A stretch of DNA of 64,000 bases from Panopea generosa (taxonomy: Eukaryota > Mollusca > Bivalvia > Adapedonta > Hiatellidae), in contig CM055907.1 of assembly GCA_029582155.1 (NCBI GenBank), positions 36,219,492 to 36,283,491 on the forward strand, given 5' to 3'. The notes under the pieces were generated by a model. It saw only the letters and a list, made by a program, of their open reading frames with translations, did no database searches and was not told the origin of the DNA. The position numbers and the translations under genes were made by a program. Of the stretch, positions 48,301-51,300 are shown in pieces (positions within the stretch are counted from its first letter, which is position 1; every line of letters starts with the position of its first letter).

Positions 48301-51300
48301 TGGGCGTAATAATCTTGCTACCGTCATGTAAGGGAGGTAATTGTTCACTGAGACCTCTAGGGACACCATTTGAACAAATCTAACAAAACTATAGTTGGTC
48401 ATCATTACTACATAAACATTTTGAAAATCTGTTGGGCCGTTCATGAGAAGATTTTTTAAGTTTTGGACTATTTTTAGTAATGGTGGCCACCTTGAATTTT
48501 AGATAGAAAAAAAAATCTTCTGTATAGTCTCCTATGCAATAGAAACACCCATGTGAAGTTTCAGTTTAATTGGCCTAGTGGTTTCAGAATAAATGAAAAA
48601 AAAAAGAGAATTTTCTATTTTCCCACAGTATCCCTATGTAAAATTCTAAGTCCTCTTACAGGGCCCCTATATATTTTAGCCCCTAAATTCTTATCTGCAA
48701 TCAAACCCCTACACTTAGGGATAATTTATATCAAATATGTACAAATCTGACATACCCGTTCTTAAGAAAACAATTTAACTAATTCCCAATTTGTACCCTT
48801 TTGGAGCCCCTCCTGATCCTTTAAGACGTAGGAACCCAGTCATTTTTACAATTCTTAACCTCCTTTACCTTACAATGCTTTAGTGAAGATATAGGCAAAA
48901 TTATTTCCATTTAAAAAAAAAAAAAAAAATATTACATTGACATGTGTCCCCTAATTGAAATCTCGGGGCAGAGTCATTCTTAACCTTAGGGACACCATTT
49001 TCACAAATCTAACAGAACTATAGTTGGTCATCATTACTACATAAACATTTTGAAAATCTGTTGGGCCGTTCATGAGAAAAAGATTTTTTAAGTTTTGGAC
49101 TATTTTTAGTAACGGCGGCCATCTTGAATTTCAGATCGAAAAAAAACACTTCTGTATAGTCTCCTATGCAATAGAAACACCCATGTGAAGTTTCAGTTTA
49201 ATTGGCTTAGTGGTTCAAGAACAGATGAAAGAAAAAGAGAATTTTCTGTTTTCCTTATAGTATCCCTATGTAAAATTCTAAGTCCCCTTACAGGGCCCCT
49301 ATAAGTTTTAGCCCCTTAATTCTTATCTGCAATCAAACCCCTACACATAGGGATAATTTATGCCAAATATGAACAAATCTGACATACTGGTTCTTAAGAA
49401 AACAAATTTAGTAATTCAAAATTTTTACCCTTTTGGGCCCCCTCCTGACCCCTTAAGACAGTGGAACCCAGTCATTTTTACAAATCTGAGCCTCCTTCAC
49501 CAAACAATGCTTCTGTGAAGATATAGGCAAAATCATTTCCATTTTAAAAAAAAAAATGACATGTGTCCCCTAATTGAACCCTCAGGATGGGGTCATATTT
49601 AACCCTAGGGACACCATTTGAACAAATCTAACAAAACTATATTTGGTCATCATTACTACATAAACATTTTGAAAATCTGTTGGGCCGTTCATGAGAAGAA
49701 GATTTTTTAAGTTTTGGACTATTTTTAGTAATGGCAGCCATCTTGAATTTCAGATCGAAAAAAAAAAAATCTTCTGTATAGTCTCCTATGCAATAGAAAC
49801 ACCCATGTGAAGTTTCAGTTTAATTGGCCTAGTGGTTTCAGACAAAGTGCTGCTAACAGACGACAGACAACGCGCCATCGCATAAGCACTTCTGGCCTTT
49901 GGCCAGTAGAGCTAAAAATTACACATAACAAGTAATACAATGTACTTACCAACAAGTAAGTTGAGGACAATGTATATGATAGCATACATGTAGAAGGAGA
50001 ACAAGTAAAAGAATGTACTTACCAACAAGTAAGTTGTGGACATTGTATGTGGTAACATACGTGTAGAAGGAGAACAAGTAAAAGAATGTACTCACCAACA
50101 AGTAAGTTGAGGACAATGTATGTGATAACATACATGTAGAAGGAGAACAAGTAAAAGAATGTACTCACCAACAAGTAAGTTGAGGACAATATATGTGGTA
50201 ACATACATGTAGAAGGTATGTGATAGCATACATGTAGAAGGAGAACAAGTAAAAGAATGTACTCACCAACAAGTAAGTTGAGGACAATGTATGTGATAAT
50301 GACATAGAAGGAGAAGAAGAAGATGATGGATGCTGTATAATTGCCACAGTCAGTCTCCCAGAAGTTGCTTCCCTCTCTGAAGGAACATAATGGTTTCCCT
50401 ACCTGAAGTTAGTTAATGTAAGTATATAAATGGATATGTGTTCATATTTTAACTTTATGCACAATTAAGTATTACAATGGAAGAAAAAATTGATATTAAA
50501 ATCCATTTTCAACTCAATACATGCTCAAATGCATGACATTCAGTTTACGTGTTTGGTCAATTTTCAGGTTTTTCGCAGTTTTAGGCCAATTTAAAAGAAT
50601 TTACAAAATCTTACTGCACCTGTTTTAGATATGCATTTGCTGCTATTATTTTCAATGTATTTTCATACTATATATTAAGCAACAAAATGTTGCTGAAAGA
50701 CATACTAGCAAATATGCCTCATTTTATTACTGGCCCCATGAGCTACACAGAAGAAAATATTTTTTAACTCAATAAAACTAGTATTGCACTACCAGACTAG
50801 CATGAAATTGAGATCCTGCACACACTAGCAAATGTGCGAAAATGTTGCATGTCCTTCATCACCCTGGAAATGTTTATTACCTAAACTACCTACCATACAA
50901 TCATGCATGATTTTGTTCCAATCCTCCCCTGTTACAATACGGAACAACAAGGATATGGCCGACAGTGTCGTCTTGAAGTTGGCATGCCTGAAATACAACA
51001 AAAATATCTCAACATACTTTTATTGACATGATATTGTTTACTAAACAAGAGGCCATCAAGGCCCTTGTTTGCTCACCTGAAGAAGGACATATTCAAGGTT
51101 GTAAGTTTTAAACTTATTTATTTTCCATTCAACTAAGACAACATGGCCATGGCAGGGGATAAAACCCCGGTCCCCGAAATCCTTGGTCCAGTGGTCCACC
51201 ACTGGATTATACTTTCCACTAAGGCTATTTACATAATATCAATTTTAGACTGGATTTTTTATAACATCAGTCTATCCTTGAAGTCATGGATGGGCGATAA

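Follow-up and report, generated by a model that had tools for sequence, protein, structure and literature searches.

How is a channel gene spliced when the end of one of its exons, complete with the 5′ splice site, stands repeated in the intron that follows? This question is raised by a 64,000-nt stretch of DNA from Panopea generosa, hereafter the window, which lies in contig C14 of an assembly of 1.47 Gb and 39 contigs. A minus-strand gene in the window carries, after its IVS6 exon, four extra copies of the exon end, each comprising about 47 nt of exon followed by about 23-25 nt of intron. We consider it probable that this array is an accidental minisatellite of an exon-intron border, with the real donor dominant, the decoy donors little used, and the in-phase product rare and not needed.

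The gene is NALCN. When the IVS6 exon is joined to the next exon, the best five of the 51 sequences matched are solved NALCN sequences (3.6e-29 to 4.3e-29), the first match outside NALCN being a sodium channel at 9.2e-12, and across the IVS6 and C-terminal exons NALCN outscores the other four-domain channels. Exon C2, compared with solved chains, returns NALCN in five of five matches (E=8.9e-24). A protein search of the animal's own assembly gives eight matches, comprising (i) five exons at the NALCN locus, with 88-98% identity, and (ii) three others at 29-30%; on the evidence of this search, the gene is therefore single copy.

The last exon-like base lies at 50267 for the real boundary and at 50169, 50096, 50023 and 49950 for the copies, followed in each case by GTGAGT or GTAAGT; from one donor to the next along the array, the distances are 98, 73, 73 and 73 nt (Table 1). 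The four downstream copies of the exon end with its donor, recognized in the initial annotation, are borne out by these boundary positions and by Tandem Repeats Finder, which reports a 73-bp unit in 4.0 copies with 93% matches at 49927-50216, together with a 98-bp period at 50118-50299. An internal duplication of about 25 nt (50192-50241) accounts for the longer first interval of 98 nt.

Table 1. Coordinates of the NALCN exons, the tandem array, its donors and the predicted elements in the window
Feature	Position	Strand	Remarks
NALCN IVS6 exon	50267..50402	-	136 nt; phase 0 start, phase 1 end; real donor at 50266; NALCN match
Array-bearing intron	43810..50266	-	6457 nt
Exon C1, next after IVS6 exon	43694..43809	-	NALCN match
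Exon C2	42957..43114	-	NALCN match
Exon C3	41867..42017	-	Own-assembly protein search
Whole tandem array, including founding exon end	49927..50299	-	73-nt unit; first spacing 98 nt
Real 5′ splice site	50261..50266	-	GTGAGT
Decoy donor 1	50163..50168	-	GTGAGT; exon +98 nt; frameshift, predicted stop in C2
Decoy donor 2	50090..50095	-	GTGAGT; exon +171 nt; in phase
Decoy donor 3	50017..50022	-	GTAAGT; exon +244 nt; frameshift, predicted stop in C1
Decoy donor 4	49944..49949	-	GTAAGT; exon +317 nt; predicted stop inside array
In-phase 57-codon extension	50096..50266	-	Stop-free
Possible 7-bp hairpin over real donor	50261..50278	-	ACTTACT-TGTT-GGTGAGT; -6.6 to -6.7 kcal/mol alone
Hairpin counterparts at decoys	50163-50180, 50090-50107, 50017-50034, 49944-49961	-	GTAAGT in the last two

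The array is confined to this exon border. A donor-spanning 25-nt pattern, with three mismatches or fewer, occurs five times in the window, in the array only (mean of 100 shuffles, 0), and a 23-nt pattern with two mismatches or fewer has five matches in the whole assembly, all inside the array, against one for the reversed-pattern control; by this pattern the unit was not found elsewhere in the animal's own assembly. Its absence from prokaryote and viral collections carries little weight, since these hold no animal genomes. Seven exon queries in the window, with borders set partly by eye, reveal a tandem array for S6 only; exon III-IV and exon S4S5 have one 54-nt flank match each elsewhere in the window, at 78%, and exon C2 has one 25-nt match. 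Tandem repeats are prone to misassembly, and the array might thus be an artefact of the assembly, a reading that is barely plausible given that the four decoy units are not identical (11 of their 73 columns vary) and that the array sits in the interior of a contig of 67.8 Mb, in which a 551-nt query spanning the array finds its single match in the 1.47-Gb assembly (by a search that skips very common words).

No acceptor AG is present in the array, its only AGs sitting inside the five donors, and units of this kind can only lengthen the exon. The units were therefore rejected as mini-exons or tandemly duplicated alternative exons, as the copies have no acceptor of their own. Intron gain by tandem duplication was rejected as well: it resembles the array in that duplication across splice signals gives rise to extra splice sites, but the new introns in that process possess both donor and acceptor, whereas the segment duplicated here supplies a donor and no acceptor AG.

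The donors themselves are of nearly equal quality. Among the 393 GT dinucleotides between 50402 and 43810, the five array donors occupy the top five places for U1 match (-10.5 to -10.6 kcal/mol), the sixth in rank reaching -7.6 kcal/mol. Judged by U1 pairing, every unit holds a credible 5′ splice site, and the tandem array overlaps the 3′ end of the exon, both being features of a minisatellite of the IFI6 type. The real donor is narrowly the strongest of eight donors of the gene, at -10.6 against -10.4 kcal/mol for that of the preceding exon (exons placed partly by eye). The pairing calculation applies to this animal because its own U1 5′ end is ATACTTACCTG, as read at the match start in all eight U1 loci inspected, of 42 matches in the genome. 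The U1 snRNA genes are clustered, at contig C2:1137285-1176714 and contig C5:44282540-44303106, and 41 of the 42 matches scored lie above the family cut-off. With U1 pairing nearly equal, and with GTAAGT in two of the decoys, the donor itself gives no reason for the first to win. Across 33 arrays from the window and a genome sample (unit 40-200 nt, at least 2.5 copies), a donor with a U1 energy of -10 kcal/mol or below occurs in 2 of 66 unit-strands, namely the NALCN array and one in L024; the L024 array has two such donors and, by eye, peptides in common with the window repeats at 41.0-41.3 and 44.5-44.7 kb.

Predicted RNA structure was considered next to donor strength. The partner of the donor in the possible hairpin, ACTTACT, lies six to twelve bases upstream and has the ACTTAC of the U1 5′ end as its first six bases. 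In a 553-nt fold at 37 °C, the predicted hairpin probability is about 0.43, 0.19, 0.18, 0.44 and 0.85, the real donor being listed first; at 20 °C the corresponding values are 0.17, 0.01, 0.01, 0.14 and 0.87, with the donors paired elsewhere instead. The idea of a donor hairpin acting as a lid common to all five was dropped, the hairpin being favoured in this fold only at the last copy. The mean unpaired probability of the five donors ranges from 0.19 to 0.26 at 37 °C and from 0.11 to 0.25 at 20 and 12 °C, lowest at 50023; predicted accessibility is thus similar across donors, and structure offers no clear choice among them. As isolated 28-mers, the five array donors, whose copies count as one observation, are more stable than the other 18 of the 23 minus-strand GTRAGT sites, and 4.3% of 3000 random 28-mers are as stable.

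The consequences for the transcript differ from donor to donor. When joined to the downstream exons, the products of the real donor and of the 50096 donor stay open through C1, C2 and C3; the 50169 product is predicted to stop in C2, the 50023 product in C1 and the 49950 product inside the array, that is, 154, 237 and 346 nt ahead of the C2-C3 junction, respectively. By the usual rule, stops that far before a later junction expose transcripts to nonsense-mediated decay. The initial annotation had placed the 50096 boundary 171 nt past the real one, stop-free and rejoining the next exon in frame, as translation confirms; its statement that the remaining decoys add 98, 244 or 317 nt and shift the frame is equally correct. 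With early stops in three of the four decoy products, each 154 nt or more ahead of a later junction, and donors so alike in U1 pairing, the array could conceivably dim the gene, a fixed share of transcripts taking a frame-shifting donor and entering nonsense-mediated decay, so that the number of units sets NALCN output; we regard this as unlikely.

The in-phase donor at 50095 might, in turn, give rise to a genuine NALCN isoform, longer by 57 residues and carrying an S6 tail for the second time, which we consider quite improbable. The insert has no stop, keeps the phase through C3 and is hydrophobic, with 19-residue means of up to about 1.9 within it, and the 50096 copy is the nearest to the decoy consensus, with 1 difference against 3, 3 and 3 over 50 exon-like positions (ties broken by alphabet; numbers too small to use). 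This low divergence is a faint hint of constraint, or may mark only a master copy. The second S6 tail read earlier in the extension is indeed present in frame, but it is not an exact copy, being one residue longer than the FSFYVIITY of the exon. Given that the S6 of the exon aligns gap-free to a solved NALCN chain, the extra codon is derived and belongs to the unit lineage; by the same alignment, an insert right after S6 would interrupt a stretch of gap-free alignment with the solved chain.

The open frame of the extension is to a large extent built into the repeat. A unit of 73 nt is 1 mod 3, so that any three neighbouring decoys include one in phase, and it has a single stop site, within the donor. 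Of 5000 dinucleotide shuffles of the 171-nt extension, 26% remain open, and of 5000 shuffles of the unit in which the donor was left intact, 57% do; elsewhere in the intron, 191 of 5830 windows of 171 nt (3.3%) are open in a given frame. An open frame is therefore expected of the unit, though not of the average intron. The exon-frame reading continues open beyond the 50023 boundary, up to a stop at 50019-50021, and the opening is thus not special to the in-phase copy. The open frame is not a sign of selection and is weak evidence for function.

Splicing in channel genes bears on both sides of the isoform reading. In the Cav3 genes of snails and mammals, intron sequence is retained as coding through tandem alternative donors (exons 8b and 25c), according to the available text of PMC3376122; the likeness resides in the alternative donors of one exon carrying channel coding sequence into what is otherwise intron. 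The same portion of that report describes no tandem repeat, and it places the Cav3 arrangement in both snails and mammals, whereas the NALCN array is known at one locus. Alternative pore exons exist in mollusc NALCN, but those in the accessible part of PMC3557258 lie in the domain II and III pores, not in a segment following IVS6. The interpretation in the initial annotation is partly supported: its structural reading, with one decoy in phase and three out of phase, is correct, and as to its suggestion of an isoform, or of decoys that tune splicing, nothing found favours either over a by-product of repeat expansion.

For the accidental border minisatellite, which we prefer, we infer an order of events from the anatomy and the derived codon. 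A stretch of about 70 nt (47 of exon end and 23 of intron) would have been duplicated at a short TT-containing match between CTTCTT in the exon and CTTGTT in the intron; the copy would then have gained 3 nt by short rewriting, amplification with partial homogenisation would have produced the 73-nt units, and a slip of 25 nt would have extended the first spacing to 98 nt. The founder arithmetic gives 70 nt, three below the unit, and the flank of the last copy follows the unit as far as ACTTGTT, save for two bases, before it departs. The inverted arms measure 5 bp in the exon, 7-8 bp in the 50096 copy and 5-6 bp in the other copies, and the hairpin predicted upstream of the donor amounts to -7.1 kcal/mol for the 50096 type against -1.0 kcal/mol for that of the exon. 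A template switch is a possible origin of the 8-nt block of the unit, which matches the inverted right arm at 7 of 8 positions (chance 0.9%).

At an array so formed, U1 would meet five near-identical donors. The donor at 50266 would carry most of the productive splicing, since the exon that it closes is the shortest of the five (136 nt, the others being 234-453 nt) and it has the whole exon body alongside; the decoys would be used at a low rate, and three of the four decoy products would be removed by nonsense-mediated decay. In laboratory work with duplicated donors, the one closest to the 3′ site is frequently preferred, which counts against the first donor winning. SRSF1 and position are both stated, in the part of PMC5585400 that is available, to shift the choice between competing donors.

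The genomic setting bears on how readily such an accident may occur. Tandem repeats, merged into 22 arrays, account for 42% of the window; a genome sample of 20 stretches of 10 kb is 21% tandem repeat, and its 200 kb (2743 bases N) contain 17 arrays with units of 40-200 nt, whose founder units cover about 0.84% of bases. In a genome so rich in tandem repeats, one border array is unsurprising. In a simulation with 22 founder units placed at random, one or more of them cover some splice edge among the 16 of the window, a number of which were set by eye, with probability 0.146. For a donor edge the probability is 0.078, which counts against the by-product reading, as such an overlap is not common. 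Genome-wide, more than a thousand donor overlaps would be expected before selection, on the assumption of some 150,000 introns and of the 0.84% cover holding at donors.

The closest known system is human IFI6 (6-16, G1P3), whose minisatellite consists of many copies of a 12-bp unit. Its multiple splice donors were reportedly described by Turri et al. in 1995 (NAR 23:1854). In IFI6, according to PMC4526556, two of the repeat units further downstream serve as donors, and three mRNA species result. The two cases share a tandem array whose units carry splice donors; they differ in that the NALCN unit is 73 nt long and includes the last 47 nt or so of a coding exon, with one of four decoys in phase, and in that the use of decoys is reported for IFI6, whereas the NALCN array is known from genomic sequence alone. 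Among the literature matches listed, NALCN with a splice-donor minisatellite or tandem repeat was not found, which is not proof of absence.

The array reproduces in nature a classic laboratory experiment: in one gene, several 5′ splice sites that are almost identical follow one another, each flanked by nearly the same exon tail and intron head. The donor chosen by the cell would reveal the part played in donor choice by position and exon body, as opposed to the sequence of the site. The locus also demonstrates that an important channel gene can acquire competing donors when a repeat expands at the border of an exon; should the decoys see hardly any use, it is a plain illustration of tolerance. 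It is highly doubtful that a variable array of exon-end cassettes forms a heritable splicing dial on NALCN, the repeat number tuning the leak current and the in-phase copy doubling the IVS6 tail; if true, each unit gained or lost (73 nt, 1 mod 3) would shift the proportions in which transcripts are productive, extended in phase or decayed.

Other repeats are apparent in the window. One open-frame sequence recurs three times soon after the array, at 49640-49819, at 49021-49197 and at about 48.4-48.9 kb, and the array thus adjoins dispersed repeat-like DNA. Further along the same NALCN intron, 45188-45665 and 47788-48295, about 2.6 kb apart, have open frames on both strands that match exactly or almost exactly, which points to duplication of an intron stretch. 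A 123-bp satellite fills positions 1-12868 of the window; its consensus lies on the opposite strand from about 1262 to 11429, and its orientation therefore seems to change twice.
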